Source: Thalassobius vesicularis | Lineage (GTDB): Bacteria; Pseudomonadota; Alphaproteobacteria; Rhodobacterales; Rhodobacteraceae | DNA length: 64,000 nt | NCBI RefSeq assembly: GCF_004799325.1 | Contig: NZ_SSMD01000002.1 | Coordinates: 434,001 to 498,000 of the forward strand | Direction of reading: 5' to 3' | Shown here: piece after piece, positions 15,800 to 24,884 of the stretch | Numbering within the stretch: position 1 is the first letter of the stretch | Layout: every line of letters begins with the position of its first letter | Translations under genes and position numbers: made by a program | Notes under the pieces: generated by a model | The model's input: only the letters and a program-made list of their open reading frames with translations | Database searches by the model: none | Told to the model about the DNA's origin: nothing

Positions 15800-15869
15800 A
15801 ACATGCCGCATACCGGATACAATACCCCCAACTGCAATGGATGCAGTCATTGAAGAGGGGGATATTATT

Positions 15870-18410
15870 ATGCCGAGTACTTTCATGTTTCCTCTGACGA
15901 GTGACGTTTTGATCGAAGGCCCGAACGGCGACATCGTTGGGTCGTTTTCCGAGGCGCTGAACGTAACGCGTCTGACGAATGGCAACTATGTGGTTGTCTG
16001 GGATAACGAGCCCGACACCGGCGCGTCCGAGGTCTGGGGCTGCGTGGTTGGCGCGAATGGCCAGCCGCTGGGCGCGGCCTTCGAGATCAGCACCCCGGTG
16101 CTGGATCCGGGCGACAACGAGATGGCTCAGTGGAACCCCGATGTCACCTGGCGGGCCGATGGCGGCTTTACCGTGACCTGGACGGTGGTCGAGTACAACT
16201 CGGGCTACAACACCGGCCGCAACCTGATGATGCGCCATTACGCAGCCGACGGCACCCCGCTGGGCGACGCCTATGTCGAGGCATATCAGGTCAGCGACTC
16301 GGGGTTTGTCGTGACCTCCAGCTGGGAACATGATGGCTCTCTGACCACGCTGTCGGATGGCGCGATCGTGGTGGTTTTCACCAATGACGCCAATCTGGAC
16401 ATGCGTATCTACGAGGCCGACGGAACCACCCTGCGCGCCTCGGCACAGGTCAACTCGCTGGCCAGTGGCTGGCAGAGCTATGGGCAGGTCGTGGCGCTGG
16501 ATGGCGGCGGCTTCGTCGTGGTCTGGCAGGACGGAACCGGCGTGGACGGCGCCTATAACGGCGTGCTGATGCAGATTTTCGACGATCAGGGCAACACGGT
16601 CGGCGATCAGCGCATTGCGCCCTCTGTCACTGATAGCAGCGAAGGTCTGCCGCGCATTTGCGCGCTCGAGGGTGGCGGCTACGTGATCGCCTGGACCTTC
16701 TGGCCGTCGGCTCACCTGCAGGTCTATGGCGCCGATGGCACCATGGTCGGCAGCGAAACCCCCCTGCAACCCGGTGGCGGCGCCTTGGGCGATTACGAAC
16801 TGGTCGCCCTGCCGGACGGAGGATTCCTGTCCATTTACACGGTCGATGACTATTGGTCGCCGAACCGCTTTGACATCTACGCCCAGCGGTACGCGGCCGA
16901 TGGCACCGCGGTCGGTCCGGCCCAGATGGTCGACTCCAGCATCCTTGGCTGGCAGATCCGCCCGCGGGCTGAAATGGGCCTGAACGGCGAGATCATCGTC
17001 ACCTGGTACAGCCAGGGCGACAATGGCGGCACCGAGGGCATCTACACCCGCACCTTCCTGGTGCCCGAACTGAACGGCACCCCGACCTGGGGCGACGACG
17101 TGATCGCGCTGGACGATTCCGGTGGCTCGGTCGACCTGCTGGGCGGCCATGACATCGGCGTCGGCGGGGCCGGAAACGACACGATCTGGGGCAACTGGGG
17201 CAATGACACCCTGTATGGCGGCGGCGGCAACGACTTGCTGGACGGCAGCTATGGCAATGACGTGCTGGAGGGCGAAGACGGCGACGACGTGCTGAACGGC
17301 GGCGACGGCAACGACACCCTGCGCGGCGGTCTGGGCAATGACAACCTGGCCGGTGGCGCTGGCAATGACGTTCTGCTGGGCGAAGACGGCAACGACACCC
17401 TGGGTGCCGGGGCTGGCAATGATCAGATCTGGGGCGGCAACGGCAACGACTACATCTTCGGTGTCAGCGGCGCCAACATCCTTGGCGGCGGCGCGGGCAG
17501 CGACACGATCTGGGGCGGCTCGGATGCCGACACGATCTATGCCGGCACCGAGAACGACGAGCTGCACGGCTTGGACGGCAACGATCAGATCTGGGCCGAT
17601 ACCGGCGACGATACCGCCTGGGGCGGCAACGGCGACGACCAGATCGGCGGCGGCGCGGGCAACGACCTGCTGTATGGCGAGGGCGGCAACGACCTGCTGT
17701 ATGGCGGAGCCGGCAATGACACCCTCGGCGGTGGCGCCGGAAACGACCAGCTGTGGGGCATGGATGACGACGACATCATCTATGGCATCGCCGGTCAGAA
17801 CACCATCGGCGGTGGCACCGGCAACGACCAACTTTGGGGCGGCAGCGGTGTCGACCTGATCTATGGCGGTCTGGGCAGCGACTTCGTCAACGGTGGCGAA
17901 GGCAATGACACGGTCTGGGCTGGCGACGGCGACGACATCGTGCATGGCGGCGGCGGCAATGACGTGCTGTATGGCACCAACGGCAACGACTACATGATCG
18001 GCGGTTGGGGCAATGACACGATCGATGGCGGGGCCGACATGGACAACCTGCTGGGCGAGCAAGGCAACGACGTGCTGCGCGGCGGGGCTGGTGACGACTG
18101 GCTTTGGGGCGGGTCGGGCACCGACACCCTGACCGGCGGTTCCGGCGCGGACTTCTTCCTGTTCCAGCCGGGCGAGGACACGGCCATCATCACCGACCTG
18201 ACCTTTGCCGACAACGACATGATCGAGCTGGTGACTGCCCTGTGGACGGATCACGGCTATGGCACCTTGACCGCAGCCGAGGTGATCGCCCAGTTCGCGA
18301 CCGTCACGGCCTGGGGCAACACCGTCTTCAACTTCGACGGCGGCGAAGTGCTGATCGTTCAGGGGGTGACCGATCTGGTCGCGCTGGAGGGCGCGCTGTT
18401 CATGACCTGA
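15870..18410 (+). CDS. RTX calcium-binding repeat protein, probable type I secretion substrate
   Basis: A secreted-type protein of 846 residues. Residues about 1-420 contain repeated beta-strand units of the pattern YVVVWDN / FTVTWT / [10 protein letters not shown] / [13 protein letters not shown], often followed by an AADGTPLG-like turn, as in beta-propeller-like repeats of marine RTX proteins. Residues about 424-757 are roughly three dozen GGxGNDxLx nonapeptides that bind calcium. The C-terminal 90 residues ([15 protein letters not shown] onward) look like the uncleaved type I secretion tail. No N-terminal signal is seen. Start 15870 (MPSTFMFPL) has GAGGGGG upstream. No protease or lipase catalytic motif was recognised, and no transporter genes are nearby. 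Confidence 0.88.
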
Positions 18411-18435
18411 CCGGTCTGATCGGCCCGAAAAACGA

Positions 18436-18472
18436 AACCGAAGCGGCCCGCGCCGCTTCGGTTCTTTTTATT
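18436..18472 (+). terminator. Rho-independent terminator of the RTX gene
   Basis: Perfect 12-bp stem AACCGAAGCGGC / GCCGCTTCGGTT with loop CCGC, followed by CTTTTTATT. It lies 26 bases after the RTX stop. Confidence 0.92.
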
Positions 18473-18745
18473 CCATCCCGGAATTGTACATTTTTCAGTG
18501 AAAATCGTACGACAGCTTCTGGCAGGACACCGGCCGCAGGAACCGGCGGATCGCCCGGCTGCGCGGCCTAGCCTTCCCGATCCCGGCAAGGCGGCGAACA
18601 TCCTGTCGCAGCTCAGCCGGGTCATGGACCGGAGTCCGGAATTCTTTTGAACACCCTTTCAGGCTTACAGCCCCATGTGGGTCAGCCGCCCCGGTTCAAA
18701 CCCATGCCAAAATGCATAAGAACAGTCGGGCGCGCTGGCCAGCAT
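18473..18745. other. Gene-free stretch between the RTX terminator and the left repeat of the island
   Basis: No coding frame of merit. An imperfect inverted repeat, GTACATTTTTCA / TGAAAATCGTAC, spans 18486-18510 around a central G and could be an operator or weak hairpin. The rest shows nothing I can name. Confidence 0.4.
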
Positions 18746-18800
18746 GCGTCTCAGTTGGACGATTTATTCAATCTTTTCAGGGGAAAGTGGCGGACTGGGG
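18746..18800. repeat. Left attachment-site repeat (tRNA-distal)
   Basis: 55-base copy beginning GCGTCTCAGTTGGACG and ending GTGGCGGACTGGGG. It matches 24766-24820 except A at 18784 against T at 24804. It carries 13 bases of the tRNA-Arg 3' end without the rest of the gene, as expected for a duplicated att core. Confidence 0.9.
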
Positions 18801-18946
18801 AACCGCCAATATCACGTTGCACCCCAGCGCCGCAAATCGAAAATTTCCGTTATTTTACGATATTTTATTAAGCATCTTAGACTTGACCCATTGCAACCTG
18901 TCGCAACACGTCACATATTTTTAGGCGGGTAAGATGGTGGGTAAAA
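18801..18946. promoter_or_regulatory. Integrase leader with paired GGYGGGTA repeats (candidate arm sites)
   Basis: AT-rich leader of the integrase. GGCGGGTA at 18924-18931 and GGTGGGTA at 18936-18943 lie 12 bases apart; TTAGGCGGG at 18921 is repeated at 24742. An equivalent pair with the same 12-base spacing lies beside the right att repeat. I infer integrase arm-binding sites, the left pair overlapping the integrase ribosome site. No convincing promoter could be fixed. Confidence 0.55.
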
Positions 18947-20239
18947 ATGCCGCGAGTTGCCAAAGAGCTTTCTGCGCTGGAAGTGAAACGGATGCAGCAC
19001 CCTGGCAAAGGGGGCAACATAACGATTGCGGTAGGTGGGGTGTCCGGTCTGCTGATGCAACTTACACCCAATGGAGGCCGCTCTTGGCTTCTGCGGGCAA
19101 GCGTAGGAGGCAAGCGCCGGGAAATCGGTCTAGGCGGCTTCCCAGACGTGACACTAGCCCAAGCGCGCGACAGAGCGCGTGATACCAAAGACAAAATCCG
19201 AAGCGGCATTGATCCCGTCGAAGAACGCAAAGCAACACGGGCCGCACTGGAAACCGCCCAGCGCAGAGGGCTGACGTTTGCAGACGCCGTTGACAGGTGT
19301 CTTGCTGCGAAGCTGGACGCCTTCAAGAACGCAAAGCACCGCGACCAGTGGCGCAACACCCTGAACACCTACGCCATGCCTGATCTGCGGAACATGCTGG
19401 TGGACGAAATCACCGTTCAAGACGTTCTGAGGGTGTTAGAACCAATCTGGCGCACCAAGACCGAAACCGCCAAGCGCCTGCGGGGCCGAATTGAGGCGGT
19501 TCTATCTTGGGCAACCGTTGCCGGACACCGGACAGGAGACAACCCCGCCCGCTGGGCCGGAAACCTGAAAGAGCTTCTGCCCGCACCTGACCGGATAGCA
19601 AAGCAGGACAACCAACCCGCCATTCAAATAGACGACGCTCCGCGTTGGTTCGCGGCAATCCGCGACCGAGACGGCATGGGCGCAAGAGCTTTGGAATTCG
19701 CCGCCCTGACCGCTGCACGGTCGCAAGAAGTGCGCGGCGCACAGTGGGATGAAATCGACCTGGACGCCGGGGTTTGGACCATTCCGGCAGGCCGGATGAA
19801 GAAAGAACGCGAGCACCGCGTTGCCCTGAGCAATGAAACAATGGCGCTTCTAGCGGCTCTACCCCGGTTTCCAGACAACACTCTGGTATTCCCCGCCCAG
19901 CGCGGCGGGCAGTTGTCCGACATGACCCTGAGCGCGACCATGAAGCGCATTCACAAGGCAGACGTGGCCGACGGGGGCTTGGGCTTCGTGGATCGCGTCA
20001 GCAAGCGCCCCGCTGTACCTCATGGCCTACGCAGCACGTTCCGCGATTGGGTGGCCGAGCGCACTCATTTCCCGGGTGACATGGCCGAGGTGGCTTTGGC
20101 CCACAAGGTCAGCAACGCCGTAGAGGCGGCATATCGGCGGGGCGACATGATTGAGAAACGCCGTGCGATGATGGCAGCTTGGGCGGATTATTTGACCGGA
20201 ACCAGCAAGGCCGGAGCCAAAGTTGTGAGGATAGTCTAA
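18947..20239 (+). CDS. int: Tyrosine-type site-specific integrase (P4-like, DUF4102 N-terminal domain)
   Basis: Integrase of 430 residues. The N-terminal arm-binding domain (about 1-95) has the DUF4102 pattern GLLMQLTPNGGRSWLLRA and RREIGLGGFPDVTLAQAR. The core-binding domain follows, and the catalytic domain shows the Arg in LTAARSQEVRGAQWDEID, a Lys in GRMKKEREHRVAL, HGLRSTFRDW with the His and second Arg, LAHKVSNAVEAAYRRGD with the second His and the nucleophile Tyr. All key residues are present, so it is probably active. It sits beside the tRNA-distal repeat, transcribed toward the tRNA. Confidence 0.95.
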   Translation: MPRVAKELSALEVKRMQHPGKGGNITIAVGGVSGLLMQLTPNGGRSWLLRASVGGKRREIGLGGFPDVTLAQARDRARDTKDKIRSGIDPVEERKATRAALETAQRRGLTFADAVDRCLAAKLDAFKNAKHRDQWRNTLNTYAMPDLRNMLVDEITVQDVLRVLEPIWRTKTETAKRLRGRIEAVLSWATVAGHRTGDNPARWAGNLKELLPAPDRIAKQDNQPAIQIDDAPRWFAAIRDRDGMGARALEFAALTAARSQEVRGAQWDEIDLDAGVWTIPAGRMKKEREHRVALSNETMALLAALPRFPDNTLVFPAQRGGQLSDMTLSATMKRIHKADVADGGLGFVDRVSKRPAVPHGLRSTFRDWVAERTHFPGDMAEVALAHKVSNAVEAAYRRGDMIEKRRAMMAAWADYLTGTSKAGAKVVRIV

Positions 20240-21040
20240 ATGTATGCACCAGAGGGATTTTCCCCTATCAATTATGCTCTCCAATGGTGCCAAGAACGCG
20301 GCGATAGGTTTTTTCGAGAATGCGCCTTACCTTGGGTCGCGGAAAATGATCCAACCGGAAAGGATATGTTTGATAGAGATTTTCTCGAATTTGCTCTGCG
20401 GTCTCGAATGCTCCTAATCGAGTGGCTAGTTAGCAATTTATTACAACGCCAGCCTGTACCTTTGTACCTCTCAGCCCCATCGGGAACTACAATGCAGGCG
20501 TCTCCGACATTTTTTCTTTCGCAGGAAATGCTGCACTGGTTTGAATTCGAGTGGCCCCTAACTGATGCAGGGCTTGTGAACATCGCCAAGAAAAAAACCG
20601 CCGAAGAAATCCTATCTGGCAAATCCACATACTACATCTTTGATATTCAGACGGGGTGCATCGTGGTTCCGTCTGAAACGGAAATCCAATCGTTCCCAGA
20701 TGCCGACGCTGTTCGTAAATTGTCACGAACAGCCGCGCCTTTTGACGGATGGTCAGTCTGCATCCGCAACGAAGATGTGGACAGAATACAAAAAATTCTA
20801 TCGTCAATGTTCAGCTGGCCCCATGAAGTTGAGGAAATTACCGCCCCTATCGGCCGCCCAAGAAAGCAAGAAGAGGCAGCAGATGTATATACAGCACTTT
20901 TCCCGAACGGACACGGCGCGTTAGGAATCACATGGGCCACTGTGGAGCAAATGGTATCCAAAGCGTTGCGACAAAGCGTCAGCATCTACACGATCAAACG
21001 TGGTTTGAAGATGCGTACGGATGGCAAAAGTAATGCATAA
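20240..21040 (+). CDS. Hypothetical island protein, 266 aa
   Basis: Begins with the ATG directly after the integrase stop (TAAATG), so it is probably co-translated with it. I do not recognise the family. Visible features are an acidic, aromatic-rich N-terminal half (WCQERGDRFFRECALPWV; EMLHWFEFEWP), and a C-terminal stretch beginning GRPRKQEEAADVYTALFPNG and ending SVSIYTIKRGLK, which looks like a helix-turn-helix of the kind used for DNA or phage-protein contacts. No signal peptide or membrane helix. Codon use is A/T-richer than in the chromosome. Confidence 0.7.
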   Translation: MYAPEGFSPINYALQWCQERGDRFFRECALPWVAENDPTGKDMFDRDFLEFALRSRMLLIEWLVSNLLQRQPVPLYLSAPSGTTMQASPTFFLSQEMLHWFEFEWPLTDAGLVNIAKKKTAEEILSGKSTYYIFDIQTGCIVVPSETEIQSFPDADAVRKLSRTAAPFDGWSVCIRNEDVDRIQKILSSMFSWPHEVEEITAPIGRPRKQEEAADVYTALFPNGHGALGITWATVEQMVSKALRQSVSIYTIKRGLKMRTDGKSNA

Positions 21041-21143
21041 CCAACTCAAATCCCGATTTCCCTTTTGCTAGTTCTGCCTGTGTTCCAAAGCCCATTTTGA
21101 CGCGTCAGTATGCTCCTAATTGCAACCGATTGGAGTGCTTCGC

Positions 21144-21329
21144 ATGGCTGAAACTTATCTAGCAGACACACATCTTGCCGCCCGCTATGGCGTTCACCGC
21201 TCAACGCCGTGGCGCTGGGCAAAGACAGACGCCACCTTTCCCCGCCCTGTGAAGCTGTCGCCGCAATGTTCGCGGTGGAAGCTGTCCGAAATTGAAGCCT
21301 GGGAACGCAACCGGGCCAATCCTGCCTAA
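21144..21329 (+). CDS. AlpA-family regulator / excisionase-like
   Basis: 61-residue winged-HTH protein of the AlpA/MerR-like type. The recognition region reads HLAARYGVHRSTPWRWAKTD, followed by FPRPVKLSPQCSRWKLSEIEAW, the standard AlpA pattern. Such proteins activate or act as directionality factors for integrases in P4-like elements. Start ATG 21144 has GGAG eight bases upstream. Confidence 0.9.
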   Translation: MAETYLADTHLAARYGVHRSTPWRWAKTDATFPRPVKLSPQCSRWKLSEIEAWERNRANPA

Positions 21330-21427
21330 AGGAAAGCCCCGCCATTTCTGGACGGGGCCGAGGGCAAAATCTCACATTCACAAACTAGCCCCGCCCGTCC
21401 TCTGGCACAACGTCAAAGGACTAAATC

Positions 21428-21742
21428 ATGTCATCCAAAAAATGGGGGCCGATCCCCTACGAAATCACCGACGCCAACGGGGACACCCGGACCGAAATTC
21501 TTAATGGCCGTGTCCGCTGGGCGGTTGAAGAACTGCGCAAGGCAGGACCGGAAGGCCGCACAGGGCGCGAAGCCCTAGGGCCGCGCTGGGCCGCGTACAT
21601 CTACACCGCCAAGCATGTTCACGGCATCCCGATCCGCGACGAATGGGAAACCCACAAGGGCGAACACCCCGGCAAGCACAAACGCTGGTGGCTGGATTGC
21701 CTGATCCAACCTGTATTTCAGACACGCAGCGACGGGAACTGA
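21428..21742 (+). CDS. Small winged-helix-like island protein, 104 aa
   Basis: Unrecognised family. The sequence NGRVRWAVEELRKAGPEG followed by GREALGPRWAAYIYTAKHVHGIPI and KHKRWWLDC has the shape of a small winged-helix domain, with conserved-looking aromatic and basic residues. AAGGACTAAATC precedes the ATG. It follows the AlpA-like gene and precedes other element genes, so a regulatory or replication-accessory role is plausible but unproved. Confidence 0.7.
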   Translation: MSSKKWGPIPYEITDANGDTRTEILNGRVRWAVEELRKAGPEGRTGREALGPRWAAYIYTAKHVHGIPIRDEWETHKGEHPGKHKRWWLDCLIQPVFQTRSDGN

Positions 21743-21833
21743 TCGGGCAGAACTTGGGCAAATATGCCTGTGCATTTGAGCCGACTGACAGCCGCGCGAG
21801 ACTCCGGGCAGATAAAATCGAAGGAGACAGACT

Positions 21834-22010
21834 GTGGGACAACTACCCAGCTACCAACTAACGCGAAACAATGGGCGGTGGCAGATCAACGCCCGTACAG
21901 GCTCTGAGAGCGCCACAGGCGGCGCTTTGCTAGTTCTTGGCAGTTGCCCTAGCCAAGTTGTCGCCTTGCGCCTGTGGCTATCTCTGCTTGTGAACGGAGC
22001 GATTGAATGA
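21834..22010 (+). CDS. Island microprotein, 58 aa, GTG start
   Basis: Frame from GTG at 21834 with a strong AAGGAG seven bases before it, ending in a TGA whose T and G lie in the next gene's ATG (ATGA overlap). Translation starts MGQLPSYQLTRNNGRWQINA and ends LWLSLLVNGAIE; the C-terminal half is hydrophobic and leucine/valine rich. Family not recognised. The ribosome site and stop-start overlap make a real gene likely; it is probably translationally coupled to the HTH protein. Confidence 0.72.
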   Translation: MGQLPSYQLTRNNGRWQINARTGSESATGGALLVLGSCPSQVVALRLWLSLLVNGAIE

Positions 22011-22462
22011 ACAAGCGCCCCTACAAATACAAAAAGAAAGGAACTGGGCGTCACGTCCAGTTGTCCGAGTGGCTACAAGCATCCGAAGCCTGGGCGACGC
22101 TCGCCCCCGGCCCTAGGGCGCTCTACATCGAACTTAAGCGTCGCTACAACGGGTCAAACAACGGGGAAATCATCCTCAGCCACAGGGACGCAGCAACCGC
22201 TATCAACGTCCACCGAAATTCCGTTGGCGGATACTTCAGAGAGCTTGAACGCCGGGGGCTGATTCACTTGACCCAAGCGCCCTATCTTGGGCCGTCGGGT
22301 ATTGGGAAAGCGTCGGTTTGGGCGCTGGATGAGCTTCCGACCGCAGACAAATGCCCAGCGCGTAAAGGTTTCATTTCCTGGCGAGAAAAAAAATCCCCCG
22401 CACAGCCATGGTGCCGAGGTGGCACAGCCATTGTGCCAGTTGACGCCGAAACCAATGAATAA
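22007..22462 (+). CDS. Winged-HTH protein, replication-initiator-like, 151 aa
   Basis: Very basic N terminus (MNKRPYKYKKKGTGRHVQLS), then WATLAPGPRALYIELKRRYN and the HTH segment ILSHRDAATAINVHRNSVGGYFRELERRGLI typical of phage or plasmid helix-turn-helix replication proteins. The C-terminal tail (PAQPWCRGGTAIVPVDAE) is encoded by the first two of four 17-bp palindromic repeats, an arrangement seen when a Rep gene contains its own origin iterons. Rep function is inferred. Overlaps the microprotein by four bases. Confidence 0.75.
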   Translation: MNKRPYKYKKKGTGRHVQLSEWLQASEAWATLAPGPRALYIELKRRYNGSNNGEIILSHRDAATAINVHRNSVGGYFRELERRGLIHLTQAPYLGPSGIGKASVWALDELPTADKCPARKGFISWREKKSPAQPWCRGGTAIVPVDAETNE

Positions 22463-22534
22463 ATGGCCTTACTGTCACAAGCATTGTGACGTGATAGCCC
22501 GTTTTCCTTTGCTGAACGGCACAGTGATTGTTCC
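22399..22534. repeat. Four 17-bp iteron-like palindromes
   Basis: Copies at 22399-22415, 22421-22437, 22474-22490 and 22518-22534. Copy 2 is GGCACAGCCATTGTGCC, copy 3 GTCACAAGCATTGTGAC; both are perfect 6-bp inverted arms around a 5-base centre. Copies 1 and 4 are imperfect. Start-to-start spacings are 22, 53 and 44 bases. Two copies lie in the end of the HTH gene, two in the following gap. Consistent with a replication origin or operator array. Confidence 0.75.
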
Positions 22535-22674
22535 ACATCTACATCTAGCCATAGGGACTGGATCGCGAGTATTCCCTTGGCGTTCCGTATCACCATCAAG
22601 CCAAAGACAGACGTTCCGATTGATCGGCGGATTAGTAGTGTGCAAAGATGTGCTGGTTGAAAACGGGTACCAGA

Positions 22675-24099
22675 ATGAAATGCTTTGCGCGAATTCTTGC
22701 CTTGATATTGGCAGCTTGGTTTTTACCACACCCCACAATTGCCCAAGACTACGCCAATCTTTTGCAAGGCTTTGATGCCAGCCGCCTAAGTGTTGGGGAC
22801 AAAAGATTTCTTCAAGCCGCCCTTGCGTTTGAAGGAGACTACCAAGGACTCCTCGACGGAGCATGGGGACGGTTAAGTCAAAGAGCTTTGGCGCGGTTTT
22901 CAGCGAGAGAACTGAACGAAGCTTCAAGAGACTGGCATATGGTAGTTTTGGCCCTGTCTCTGATTGACAAGGTCGATAGAGACGGCTGGCAATTTAGATA
23001 CCTACCCGACCTTGGCATTTCCCTTCTCGTACCATCAAAGAAGCTAGTCGTTGATCCACCTTCGGAACGGTTTGCCAACTATCGGCATAGAACAAATTCG
23101 TTCTCATATTCCGTCGGGGCGTTGGACTTGGACGCCGCAAACTCAATCCACAGCTTCACTGAAAATTGGCATGAAGGTTACGGCAAGCCCTATATCGTCA
23201 GAAAGCAAGGGCTTGCCGTTACAAGCTCAACCAAGCCCACAGGAGAAGCACTTTACACTCGATCAGACTTTGTGAATGGCAAGTGGTCGACGGTAATGTT
23301 GTACGCCAACAAGCAGGATGCAAACCTGCTGGGAGCAGTCTCATCAAGCATCGTCGTGGGCAGGACACCCCCACTGGACATAACCAAAGATGGGTACTTG
23401 AACCGGACAATTTTGGATCTTTTCAGGTGGTTTGACGAAAACCAAAAAGACGAAGAGGCCAGTCAGAAAAAGCCCACAGAAAAGCGTGAAACAACAGGGA
23501 GTGGATCGGGGTTTGTAGTGTCGACTTCCGGCCACGTCCTAACAAACGCCCACGTTGTAGATGGATGCCGCGAAATCTTTGTCGACAAACAGCGTTCGCA
23601 GCTGGTGGGCAGTTCACCTGATTTTGACCTAGCATTGCTGCTGACCCAACTACCGGCAAGTAAAGCACCCGCCAAATTCTCACCTAGCCCCGCTCTGCTG
23701 AATTCAGACGTGACTGTGGTCGGTTATCCCTATGCGGGCTTATTGGGCGGTTTAAATGTTACGCGTGGTGCAATTTCTTCCCTCACCGGCCTCCGAGGTG
23801 AGGCAACACAAATGCAAATTTCCGCCCCAGTTCAGCCTGGGAATTCAGGCGGACCAGTGGTTGGGCGAGACGGAGAAGTTGTGGGCGTCGTTGTTGCGAA
23901 GCTGAATGCGAAAAAGCTGTCGGAAGTCACCGGAGACATCCCGCAGAATGTGAACTTTGCGGTACGTGGTGAGATTGCCAAACTATTTCTCTCACAACAC
24001 GGAGTTCAACCACTTTTGGGCGACAGTGACGAACCAATGGAAGCCGTTGCGCTTGCGCGGATCGCGAGCCAGTTCACGGTATTCATTGAGTGCAAATAG
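22675..24099 (+). CDS. Exported trypsin-like serine protease with N-terminal peptidoglycan-binding-like domain
   Basis: 474 residues. A signal peptide (MKCFARILALILAAWFLPHP then TIAQD) is followed by a peptidoglycan_binding_1-like segment, KRFLQAALAFEGDYQGLLDG AWGRLSQRAL (about residues 40-70). The S1C-type protease domain begins near 280: GSGSGFVVSTSGHVLTNAHV contains the catalytic His, PDFDLALLLTQLP the Asp, and QPGNSGGPVVGRDGEVVGVV the Ser. No PDZ domain is visible, unlike the Do-like protease at 47.3 kb. An ATG nine codons upstream (22648) is an alternative start. Probably periplasmic; role in the element unknown. Confidence 0.88.
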   Translation: MKCFARILALILAAWFLPHPTIAQDYANLLQGFDASRLSVGDKRFLQAALAFEGDYQGLLDGAWGRLSQRALARFSARELNEASRDWHMVVLALSLIDKVDRDGWQFRYLPDLGISLLVPSKKLVVDPPSERFANYRHRTNSFSYSVGALDLDAANSIHSFTENWHEGYGKPYIVRKQGLAVTSSTKPTGEALYTRSDFVNGKWSTVMLYANKQDANLLGAVSSSIVVGRTPPLDITKDGYLNRTILDLFRWFDENQKDEEASQKKPTEKRETTGSGSGFVVSTSGHVLTNAHVVDGCREIFVDKQRSQLVGSSPDFDLALLLTQLPASKAPAKFSPSPALLNSDVTVVGYPYAGLLGGLNVTRGAISSLTGLRGEATQMQISAPVQPGNSGGPVVGRDGEVVGVVVAKLNAKKLSEVTGDIPQNVNFAVRGEIAKLFLSQHGVQPLLGDSDEPMEAVALARIASQFTVFIECK

Positions 24100-24133
24100 T
24101 GTCCGTCAGTTAGAAAGATTGCTCACGGCCCCA

Positions 24134-24607
24134 ATGTCAGACCTTCACCCCATAAGCATGTCTGGCGATTGCCTTCGCTCACTAAGGCACAGCCATGGTC
24201 TCTCGCGCTCTTCACTAGCTAGGCTGGCGGGCTTGCACCCTGACACCGTCAAGTATTGGGAGAGAAAACCAACTGTTCGGCCTTTTGCCTACGGACCACG
24301 ATTGATATTGGCCGCACTGGGCATTCAGGTTGCTCCGCGATTTGGCTTGGGGGTTTTTCGGAACACTACGCGCGCACGTGATGGGGTCTTAGCAACAACA
24401 AGCCGTCCTCAAACTAAACACCTTTGCGGCGCAAAGACCCGAAAAGGCGCTCCATGCCAAGCCAAAGCAATGCCAGGAAGGAAGCGTTGCAAATTTCATG
24501 GTGGCGCTAGTACGGGGCCTAGAACACAAGAAGGGCGCAGGCGAATTTCCGAAGCGCAGAAACTTCGCTGGGCGTTACGCACAGCGTCGAAGAACTTGGA
24601 CCTTTAG
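24134..24607 (+). CDS. XRE-type HTH protein with HGGxSTGPRT motif
   Basis: 157 residues. An N-terminal helix-turn-helix (LRSLRHSHGLSRSSLARLAG then LHPDTVKYWERK) is joined to a C-terminal Cys/His segment, CGAKTRKGAPCQAKAMPGRK then RCKFHGGASTGPRTQEGRRR. The latter motif is common in alphaproteobacterial phage and island proteins and probably binds zinc and DNA. The longer open frame begins inside the protease gene; ATG 24134 or 24158 is more likely as start, neither with a strong ribosome site. Last gene before the right att repeat. Confidence 0.72.
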   Translation: MSDLHPISMSGDCLRSLRHSHGLSRSSLARLAGLHPDTVKYWERKPTVRPFAYGPRLILAALGIQVAPRFGLGVFRNTTRARDGVLATTSRPQTKHLCGAKTRKGAPCQAKAMPGRKRCKFHGGASTGPRTQEGRRRISEAQKLRWALRTASKNLDL

Positions 24608-24741
24608 AGGCCGCTCTTTGCATTCTCTATCCAGCAAGCAGGAAAGAAACCGACAGAGCACACCAAATTGGAAAGCGCGTCCACCAGCAGCTAATTCACG
24701 GAGACGCCCTACCCAACATCACCCCATCTAAGCGCAAATTC

Positions 24742-24764
24742 TTAGGCGGGATTTTTGGCGGGTA
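24742..24764. promoter_or_regulatory. Right-end GGCGGGWW pair (candidate integrase arm sites)
   Basis: TTAGGCGGG at 24742-24750 repeats the left-end sequence; GGCGGGAT (24745-24752) and GGCGGGTA (24757-24764) are 12 bases apart, matching the spacing of the left pair. They end two bases before the att repeat. Confidence 0.55.
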
Positions 24765-24765
24765 C

Positions 24766-24820
24766 GCGTCTCAGTTGGACGATTTATTCAATCTTTTCAG
24801 GGGTAAGTGGCGGACTGGGG
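24766..24820. repeat. Right attachment-site repeat (tRNA side)
   Basis: 55-base copy matching 18746-18800 with one difference (T at 24804). Positions 24808-24820 are the CCA end, discriminator, acceptor strand and two T-stem bases of tRNA-Arg; the remaining 42 bases lie downstream of the tRNA. Confidence 0.9.
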
Positions 24821-24884
24821 AGGATTCGAACCCCCGACCCCTTGATTCGTAGTCAAGTACTCTATCCAACTGAGCTACCAGTCC
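24808..24884 (-). tRNA. tRNA-Arg (anticodon ACG)
   Basis: 77 bases including an encoded CCA. Acceptor arms GGACTGG and CCAGTCC pair fully; the D-loop is AGCTCAGTTGGATAGAGT; the anticodon stem CTTGA/TCAAG encloses loop CTACGAA, anticodon ACG; the T-loop is GGTTCGAATCC. The 3' end is the integration site of the adjacent element, which preserves the gene. Confidence 0.97.

Follow-up and report, generated by a model that had tools for sequence, protein, structure and literature searches.

What is the 6-kb segment that lies against an intact tRNA-Arg gene in this 64,000-nucleotide stretch of Thalassobius vesicularis DNA (hereafter the window), and how could it move? The reading that we favor, with a probability of about two in three, is that the segment is a minimal hitchhiker that would excise, replicate itself and depend for its movement on a helper, probably a phage. 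In this respect it would resemble the phage-inducible chromosomal minimalist islands (PICMI) described in Vibrionaceae (PMC10803314).

Integration at tRNA-Arg(ACG)

The segment is flanked by direct repeats that are identical at 55 of 56 positions (mismatch A18784/T24804) and are spaced 6020 bp apart. The last 14 bases of tRNA-Arg(ACG) lie within the right copy and the tRNA gene is kept intact, the arrangement expected of a tRNA-integrating element. The first-pass annotation had described a 55-bp repeat with one mismatch whose right copy held 13 tRNA bases. The repeat, its mismatch and the enclosed tRNA end all stood, whereas the length proved to be 56 bp, the coordinates were one base off and the tRNA count was 14; the intact gene proposed as the target could be placed on the minus strand (Table 1). 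No third copy was found in the window even with as many as 18 mismatches tolerated across 55 bases. When the right att region (201 bp) was compared with the genome that carries it, seven matches were obtained: the region itself, the left copy (56 bp, 98%) and five others of 53–98 bases at 71–79%. The GC content of the element is 54.2%, compared with 64.2% and 62.6% in the flanks.

Two observations in relatives had been named as able to overturn this interpretation: both repeats in strains that lack the element, or the same genes conserved at this place in species that lack the repeats. Neither was made. When whole genomes of congeners were searched with the att sequence of the tRNA side, 8/8 gave no second long copy, and in 8/8 none of the seven element proteins had a tblastn match (E ≤ 1e-3) in the 15 kb that adjoin the tRNA on the element side. 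One congener (G004) has A at the position of the att mismatch (18784). The congeners, in which the left flank is not conserved, showed no exact empty site for the copy in the window; among the matches listed, which reached down to E ~2e-5, this flank (about 18403–18740) gave a 46-bp stretch in congener G008 and the end of an RTX-like gene. For a 4.64-kb sister element of congener G005, in contrast, the exact empty tRNA-Leu site is present in G007, G002 and G008, the left flank of G008 being additionally interrupted between L106 positions 7013 and 7126, outside the junction.

Table 1. Coordinates of features of the element and its integration site within the window.
Feature	Position	Strand	Description
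Distal att copy	18746-18801		56 bp, one mismatch to tRNA copy
tRNA 3' end copy in distal att	18788-18801		14 nt
int	18947-20239	+	P4-type tyrosine integrase, 430 aa; Pfam PF22022/PF13356/PF00589
266-aa ORF	20240-21040	+	No family assigned; abuts int stop (TAA|ATG), place of PICMI iolg
alpA-like	21144-21329	+	Small HTH protein, 61 aa from ATG; PF05930 E 1.9e-7
HTH_91	21428-21742	+	Winged-helix protein, 104 aa; PF22324 E 8.6e-27
rep151	22007-22462	+	O/DnaD/RepA_N-like winged-helix protein, 151 aa; putative initiator
Box 1	22399-22415	+	Inside rep
Box 2	22421-22437	+	Inside rep; perfect dyad GGCACA-TGTGCC
Box 3	22474-22490	+	Behind rep; perfect dyad GTCACA-TGTGAC
Box 4	22518-22534	+	
Tail of block	22534-22556	+	Near-invariant, AT-rich, 23 nt
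Protease (cargo)	22675-24099	+	Trypsin_2/HtrA-like serine protease, exported-looking, 474 aa; PF13365 E 6.1e-24
HTH + HGGxSTG-domain protein	24134-24607	+	157 aa; NF041373 E 2.4e-18
tRNA-proximal att copy	24766-24821		
tRNA-Arg(ACG)	24808-24884	-	Intact; integration target

Gene content

Seven proteins are encoded between the repeats. The integrase, whose gene starts 159 bp after the point at which the tRNA-like portion of the distal att copy begins, carries Arm-DNA-bind_3, Phage_int_M and Phage_integrase domains. The 266-aa ORF that follows matched no family in Pfam, PHROGs, NCBIfam or PADLOC, and a partial homologue was found in one related locus (L100, 31% over 89 residues). The AlpA-like factor of the first-pass annotation was recovered by its Pfam family and is likely an excisionase or activator; this protein also gave a chance-level match to a transposase-type HTH family (PF13613, E 0.004), below the Pfam cut-off. 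The HTH_91 gene has one match in its own genome and is a backbone gene in many relatives of the element; its model (pLDDT 81) had no PDB match at E ≤ 0.001. The gene proposed earlier to encode an exported protease matched the Trypsin_2 family, and its product looks exported from a signal peptide judged by eye. No homologous ORF was found in the 13 other elements then delimited. The HTH + HGGxSTG protein also occurs in L112, L120, L121, L123, L128, L132, L145 and L149, and among PHROGs it matched a small terminase at chance level (phrog_10899, E 0.036).

As had been claimed, no capsid or relaxase was recognised among the seven proteins in Pfam, PHROGs, NCBIfam or PADLOC, nor was a portal or large terminase (Pfam, E ≤ 1; other libraries, ≤ 0.1). 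The terminase, portal and capsid that would mark a prophage were absent at E ≤ 1e-3 in Pfam and PHROGs, and the relaxase typical of integrative mobilizable or conjugative elements was likewise not among the seven. The lack of structural genes that characterizes phage satellites holds for the window element and, among the families listed, for its relatives.

Rep151 and the block at the 3′ end of its gene

The gene earlier called Rep-like encodes rep151, for which a structural model was obtained with a mean pLDDT of 85. In a Foldseek search of the PDB, initiator entries occupied ranks 1–5 and 7, with 4pql first (E 7e-4), and the titles of the leading matches named an initiator, a Rep-DNA complex or the N-terminal domain of a DNA binding protein; we take these leading entries to be staphylococcal RepA. 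The predicted fold thus best matches plasmid initiators, in agreement with the earlier call. Rep151 has the N-terminal winged-helix fold of RepA_N proteins according to Foldseek. A C-terminal recruitment domain was not seen, as the last strand ends at residue 107 and the tail is of low confidence, and the Pfam RepA_N family (PF06970) matched 1 of 19 rep homologues, at E 0.12. At E ≤ 0.1 a DnaD-like helicase loader PHROG matched 19/19 homologues (best 2.3e-8), a replication initiation PHROG 15/19 and an O-like PHROG 9/19; the window protein alone scores weakly (PHROG E 0.0044 and 0.027). We take rep151 to be a probable replication initiator.

The first-pass annotation had also noted iterons. 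These were confirmed, and they extend to a block shared across the family, located where the gene ends and composed of four imperfect-dyad boxes and a near-invariant tail. The spacing of the boxes is kept in the homologues (22 bp in 18/20 rows, 52–53 in 16/20 and 44–46 in 17/20). Taken alone, the box consensus does not exceed chance in the window: 11 matches with up to 3 mismatches were found compared with a shuffle mean of 7.9, and 19 of 100 shuffles reached 11. The spacing and the tail are beyond chance; the tail occurs once in the window and in none of 100 shuffles. No covariation between the half-sites of a box was detected beyond that of between-sequence shuffles. When the strict tail pattern was used as a DNA-only query, a rep homologue lay alongside in 31 of 33 loci, 3 of which were already in the starting set; the search returned 32 genome loci, and 26 of them were taken forward, with L131 left out of the 26. 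We read the boxes and tail as a putative replication origin.

Rep151 could instead be a transcription regulator, with the four boxes as its operators and no self-replication. Regulator HTH families do match the homologues at E ≤ 1 (HTH_Crp_2 in 18/19, MarR in 8/19), and MarR-type folds appear in the fold search. However, they come after the initiators, PHROG replication families match all 19 homologues, and the boxes occupy the last part of the gene and the sequence just after it rather than its promoter, with the AT-rich tail adjoining. We consider this alternative improbable.

The block bears on a second alternative as well, in which a helper plasmid or ICE would supply the relaxase, acting on an unrecognised oriT, and rep151 would serve maintenance after transfer. 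Integration at a tRNA with an integrase and without packaging genes is also usual for elements mobilized by conjugation, and the conserved block might, in principle, act as a nick region. The seven proteins include no relaxase, however, and the block is tied to rep and consists of dyad boxes with conserved spacing, as in an initiator-binding origin. Mobilization of this kind therefore appears unlikely, if somewhat more credible than a regulatory role for rep151.

A family of related elements

Among 295 genomes of the host family, 43 contained a relative of rep151 (E ≤ 0.001) and 21 a strong match (below 1e-26). Sixty loci were selected for similarity to rep or for the tail, and the following counts therefore describe a chosen sample rather than a random one; 59 of the 60 fetched were counted, L168, without rep, being left out. 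An integrase was present in 54 loci, and 44 of the 59 also had a tRNA in place. The tRNA 3′ end was repeated exactly (at least 14 bp) in 37 of these 44 eligible loci, compared with 15 of 8800 random control sites, and the distance from the repeat start to the int match was 123–199 bp in 36 of the 37. Twenty-nine core members, the clearest, were defined with a cut of 100 bits, which self-matches reach for most of the first 20 loci. In 29/29 the tRNA, mostly Leu or Ser, lies on the opposite strand, at the end farther from int. From these data we conclude that the window element is one member of a family of tiny tRNA-integrated elements. The earlier view of it as a minimal satellite or plasmid-like element is thereby supported; movement by a helper is proposed.

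The families in the cargo of relatives come from a scan of 130 ORFs, the longest among 163 that were picked mechanically. Among the families listed (the best 25 of 51 for Pfam and PHROGs and the best 25 of 39 for PADLOC) was an IS21-type transposase pair, and no phage structural or packaging family was present. This bears on the suggestion that the window element is a dead, immobile remnant of a prophage or larger island. The window copy is without an exact empty site and the relatives are patchy among hosts, as that suggestion would have it. Against this, the backbone frames are open, the repeat copies differ at one position, and size and gene order agree with the 29 relatives, among whose listed families phage structural and packaging functions do not appear. 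A remnant is thus quite improbable.

The core elements span 3.8–11.4 kb with a median of 5.7 kb. An alternative vehicle would be the gene transfer agent (GTA), with small size selected by spread as cargo of ~4 kb particles; RcGTA packages about 4 kb according to the available text of PMC9662315. The host does have an RcGTA-type cluster containing the sole capsid found in a search for PF05065 (HK97 type), and 10 of the 29 core elements are 3.75–4.64 kb long. Among the first 13 sizes, 8 had been 3.8–4.6 kb, which had suggested a GTA-sized payload; that proposal lost ground once the 29 core elements gave their median. The window element, at 6.0 kb, and a core set with that median and with members up to 11.4 kb are too long for one particle, and the lower end of the range is in any case near the sum of the backbone genes. 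Because of the core median, GTA carriage is kept as a weak rival only, and we regard it as very unlikely.

Of the 54 integrase loci, 49 passed the frame check; in 33 of these, with 15 cases at −4, an ORF of at least 90 aa starts between −25 and +40 relative to the int stop. At 440 control stops, taken from other long ORFs of these loci, the counts were 173 in range and 47 at −4. The int-following ORF is therefore a moderate enrichment (67% vs 39%) rather than a hallmark, and the parallel with PICMI is weakened because the control stops reach 39%. The 34 ORFs at this position form 17 BLAST clusters, in which only the L100 ORF groups with the 266-aa ORF of the window.

In IMG/VR, one contig carried the strict motif. 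It is probably the genome of Cucumibacter locus L140 rather than a virome sequence, since its int and rep match values equal those of that locus. A role of the tail as a cos or pac mimic was not supported, the strict pattern being found in that one IMG/VR contig. A scan with the rep profile gave five divergent relatives without the motif, one of them on a phage-like contig of 42 kb that has an integrase of its own, and rep is therefore not unique to minimal elements. The rep relative of L098 matched none of 50,697 phage records (tblastn), and for this reason no helper phage is named. Contig L131 was considered as a circle and rejected, as its ends do not overlap.

Proposed mechanism

We propose that Int recombines the tRNA-Arg 3′ end with the att site of the element, and that Int and AlpA, perhaps with the product of the 266-aa ORF, would excise the element as a ~6.0-kb circle. 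Rep151 would then bind the four imperfect-dyad boxes located around the 3′ end of the gene that encodes it, open the AT-rich tail next to them and recruit host or helper replication machinery, thereby amplifying the circle. Because no transfer or packaging gene was recognised in the element, the amplified DNA would leave in a helper vehicle, most likely a phage capsid as in PICMI satellites. The stretch from the origin to the tRNA would carry mostly exchangeable cargo, represented here by the genes for the protease and the HTH/HGGxSTG protein.

A wider proposal, which we hold tentatively and at just under even odds, is that these elements form an alphaproteobacterial satellite-like family (3.8–11 kb) with a half-size RepA_N-like initiator that has its origin, made up of four often A-centred boxes and the 23-nt tail, at the 3′ end of its own gene. 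Different integrase lineages (the integrase tree comprised 34 of 38 sequences) would be coupled to one replication module and sent into different tRNA genes, making the family an independent counterpart of PICMI moved by phages yet to be found. If so, the rep gene would mark a class of mobile element probably missed by prophage and plasmid finders because of its small size, and the 23-nt tail and the rep profile would serve as markers for finding such elements and, in phage lysates, their helpers. RepA_N-like initiation, described as rare in Gram-negatives in the available text of PMC7145576, would also be extended to a shortened form.

Comparison with known systems

As far as the PICMI account goes (PMC10803314), both kinds of element are small, are alike in gene order, combine int and alpA with a replication gene and are without capsid remodelling genes. 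In both, a gene frequently overlaps or abuts the end of int; in PICMI this is iolg, which overlaps int by 1, 4 or 13 nt in 21/35 subfamilies. Unlike PICMI, which uses a DUF3987 primase, the element has rep151 and the four-box block, and no DUF3987-type primase (PF13148/PF19263) was listed for the seven window proteins at E ≤ 1. It also differs in integrating at tRNA 3′ ends rather than next to fis, in having an HTH_91 gene, and in its hosts, which are Alphaproteobacteria rather than Vibrionaceae.

The PLE satellites of Vibrio cholerae, in the portion of PMC7145576 available, share a RepA_N-type N-terminal fold in the initiator, predicted here, and semi-palindromic repeats that converge on a poly-A tract. 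They use a large serine recombinase, and rep151 differs from their initiator in having no meaningful Pfam RepA_N score and no second folded domain. In pSK41-type RepA_N plasmids, as presented in PMC5703833, a 120-residue N-terminal domain binds four Rep boxes inside rep; that Rep is a 319-aa plasmid protein with a linker, a C-terminal domain and mid-gene boxes, in contrast to the length of rep151 and its boxes at and behind the 3′ end. The tmRNA-site islands moved by a jumbo phage resemble the element in having a tyrosine integrase, in the direct repeats found at an RNA gene and in lacking transfer genes; they have other hosts, and the available text mentions no shared replication module (PMC12595487). 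Charybdis elements were considered as relatives and set aside, being archaeal and with no shared gene named in the available text (PMC12324425). The Rhodobacteraceae prophage survey, in the part available, does not mention satellites or AlpA (PMC8224337). In an element of Paracoccus versutus pTAV4 (L044), int, alpA and HTH_91 follow in the same order and are 77%, 69% and 40% identical to those of the window; its 18-kb stretch differs in giving no rep151 match.

Structure and insertion site of the element

Two direct repeats of 56 bp, differing at one position and spaced 6020 bp apart, bound the element in the Thalassobius vesicularis window; the right copy includes the 3'-terminal 14 bases of an intact tRNA-Arg(ACG) gene. 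The repeats enclose seven plus-strand genes: int, a 266-aa ORF, alpA, an HTH_91 gene, the 151-aa HTH gene (rep151), a serine protease gene and an HTH/HGGxSTG gene. The GC content of the element is 54.2%, as opposed to 64.2 and 62.6% in its flanks. The repeat extends 42 bp past the tRNA, whereas exact repeats in relatives usually total 14-26 bp; perhaps this length reflects a recent insertion, or repeated insertion, at the site. Adjoining the element on the left is a gene for an 857-aa protein with many GGxGxD-type repeats, as judged by eye.

Coordinates of features in the window and in three relatives' loci
Feature	Sequence	Position	Strand
857-aa protein gene	window	15837-18410	
Distal att copy	window	18746-18801	
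rep151	window	22007-22462	plus
Origin-like block (four boxes and tail)	window	22399-22556	
HTH/HGGxSTG gene	window	24134-24607	plus
tRNA-proximal att copy	window	24766-24821	
tRNA-Arg(ACG)	window	24808-24884	minus
499-aa ORF and DNA polymerase III alpha-type gene	L111	6084-10930	
rep homologue and integrase	L220	7983-9928	
Tail motif	L120	4072	

The tRNA-Arg gene and its right flank were present in all eight congeners. On the other side of the tRNA, tblastn (E <= 1e-3) found none of the seven element proteins within 15 kb in these genomes, a second long att copy was not found in any of them, and blastn of window 10-34 kb, run against 15 kb per congener, gave no match to anything left of the att region. 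Because the adjoining left flank is not conserved in the congeners, they provide no exact empty site for the window copy. A terminator-like stem, identified by eye, directly follows the tRNA-Arg gene in five of the eight congeners (L039-L043) and is absent from the window, G003, G004 and G006. In G004 its place is taken by ~45 bp similar to the att repeat, which align with the two copies at scores of 27 and 24 (500 shuffles, compared with the left copy, reached at most 11). G004 has A at the position that differs between the window copies; this single base suggests that the distal copy retained the chromosomal base and that crossover may have occurred within the tRNA part. The acceptor stem of tRNA-Arg is changed on both strands in the window and G004 (2/9 genomes), and another version is common to the other seven.

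A family of related elements in tRNA genes

Relatives of the 151-aa protein were found in 43 of 295 host-family genomes (E <= 0.001), 21 of them below 1e-26, own genome counted. A rep profile was positive in 30/149 genomes of an order sample; it gave no match in congeners G003 and G007. We fetched 60 regions, 20 through strong rep similarity, 26 through the DNA tail motif and 14 further ones through rep similarity (2 strong); rep was present in 59, an upstream integrase in 54 and a tRNA gene also in place in 44. An exact repeat of the tRNA 3' end, 14-51 bp long, stood beside int in 37 of these 44 loci, compared with 15 of 8800 random control sites. The distance from repeat start to int match was 123-199 bp in 36/37 loci (159 in the window, counted from the tRNA-like part). 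Core elements, defined by a rep score of at least 100 bits or presence of the motif, plus an att (n=29), measured 3751-11376 bp (median 5667), and in all 29 the tRNA was encoded on the opposite strand, at the end away from int. Their targets were tRNA-Leu (12), Ser (10), Thr (5), Arg (1) and Ala (1). For one of the relatives, the 4.64-kb sister element of G005 in tRNA-Leu (L106), exact empty sites were found in G007, G002 and G008, where the two flanks join directly, sharing 15-17 bp that correspond to the repeat.

One genome, G148, holds four rep loci of the family (L098, L102, L108, L194). A nearly identical stretch 3' of the origin block is common to L098 and L102, neither of which has a tRNA within the 20 kb fetched. 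On L220, a 42-kb metagenomic contig whose genes look phage-like by eye (SSB, lysis-type), a rep homologue (57%) adjoins the contig's own integrase and lacks the tail motif.

An origin-like block and its putative initiator

Alignment of the window and 20 relatives revealed four boxes of ~17 nt with imperfect dyad symmetry, followed by a tail close to CATATATACATCTAGCCATAGGC, at and behind the rep 3' end. Many rows have boxes centred on a run of A, which the window's own boxes lack; L103 has only boxes 3 and 4 within the aligned stretch, and boxes and spacing deviate in L110. Boxes 1 and 2 are spaced by 22 bp in 18 of 20 rows, boxes 2 and 3 by 52-53 bp in 16, and boxes 3 and 4 by 44-46 bp in 17. 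On average 2.8, 4.1, 4.0 and 3.0 of the 6 positions in the successive boxes were paired, compared with 1.4 in random 17-mers, and no covariation within boxes was seen across 20 rows.

A DNA-only search with the strict tail pattern returned 32 places in an 84,980-species genome collection and one IMG/VR contig. By record title the carriers in the genome collection were mostly Rhodobacterales, with Asticcacaulis, Brevundimonas and Cucumibacter also represented. A rep homologue (tblastn E <= 1e-4) was present in 31 of these 33 loci, three of which (L141, L143, L150) are L113, L099 and L111 by contig and coordinates. It usually lay directly 5' of the tail; the exceptions were L119 and L129 (0.6-1.3 kb apart) and L130 (tail on the other strand). 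When up to 2 mismatches were allowed, the tail occurred in 14 of the 394 family genomes, among them G005 and the own genome, and a reversed control in 0. L168 and L120 carry an exact tail motif with no recognisable rep homologue near.

PHROG matches of the rep homologues (E <= 0.1) were to DnaD-like helicase loaders in 19/19 (best 2.3e-8), replication initiation proteins in 15 and O-like proteins in 9; Pfam RepA_N matched 1/19, at E 0.12. When the predicted Rep151 structure (pLDDT 85, pTM 0.74) was searched against PDB folds, initiator domains led, with 4pql at rank 1 (E 7e-4, TM by target 0.54), the only rank below E 0.001. Ranks 2-5 were 4pt7, 5kbj, 4pql and 5kbj, rank 6 was an unrelated TFIIIC chain, rank 7 was 4pta and rank 11 the DnaD N-terminal domain. 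Because of the close parallel to a published initiator description, we read the block as a putative replication origin that Rep151 would bind.

Integrases and the ORF behind int

In an integrase tree of 34 of 38 sequences, 12 formed a Ser-rich clade and 16 a Leu/Thr clade; target labels changed 9 times on the tree, compared with 17.4 when shuffled. The window integrase was separate, together with two Ser elements (97/92); its branch is long, and the program marked the placement as unsure. Plasmid pTAV4 of Paracoccus versutus has a 77% identical int with alpA and HTH_91 and no rep151 match. From the tree and pTAV4, a single replication module seems to have been coupled to several integrases.

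According to excerpts of PMC10803314, excision of PICMI115, a phage-inducible chromosomal minimalist island, requires alpA, int and iolg, and iolg, the ORF after int, overlaps int by 1, 4 or 13 nt in 21/35 PICMI subfamilies. The 266-aa ORF of the window abuts the int stop. Of 49 loci, 33 have an ORF (90 aa or longer) that starts at -25 to +40 of the int stop, with a 4-nt overlap in 15 and a 1-nt overlap in 6; a control set of 440 stops, taken from other long ORFs of these loci, gave 173, 47 and 9. The excess is real but moderate, because operon genes show the same arrangement. The 34 int-following ORFs, the window's counted, fell into 17 BLAST clusters.

Possible vehicle and cargo

A PF05065 search of the host genome found one HK97 capsid gene, in a gene transfer agent cluster with GTA_TIM and Rcc01698_C domains. 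The RcGTA capacity of ~4 kb, as stated in an excerpt of PMC9662315, is too small for the 6.0-kb element. By analogy with PICMI and with PLE, the Vibrio cholerae satellites, a putative helper phage would be the likeliest vehicle. By tblastn the L098 rep relative matched none of 50,697 phage records and 3 of 72,556 plasmid records. The matches listed for searches of open PMC full text include no account of elements of this kind from Rhodobacterales, and a term search of a Rhodobacteraceae prophage survey (PMC8224337) gave neither satellite nor AlpA.

The HGGxSTG part of the last element gene matched a PHROG small terminase at E 0.036, which is chance level; if real, the match would bear on packaging. 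Sel1 and ankyrin repeats are among the first 25 families listed per scan for the relatives' cargo, as are a type IIG restriction enzyme, an adenylate/guanylate cyclase domain and an IS21-type transposase plus its ATPase partner. In L111, an 11.4-kb relative, the att repeats enclose a 499-aa ORF, presumably the one carrying an IMS domain in the cargo scan, followed by a DNA polymerase III alpha-type gene; we take the pair to resemble imuB-dnaE2.
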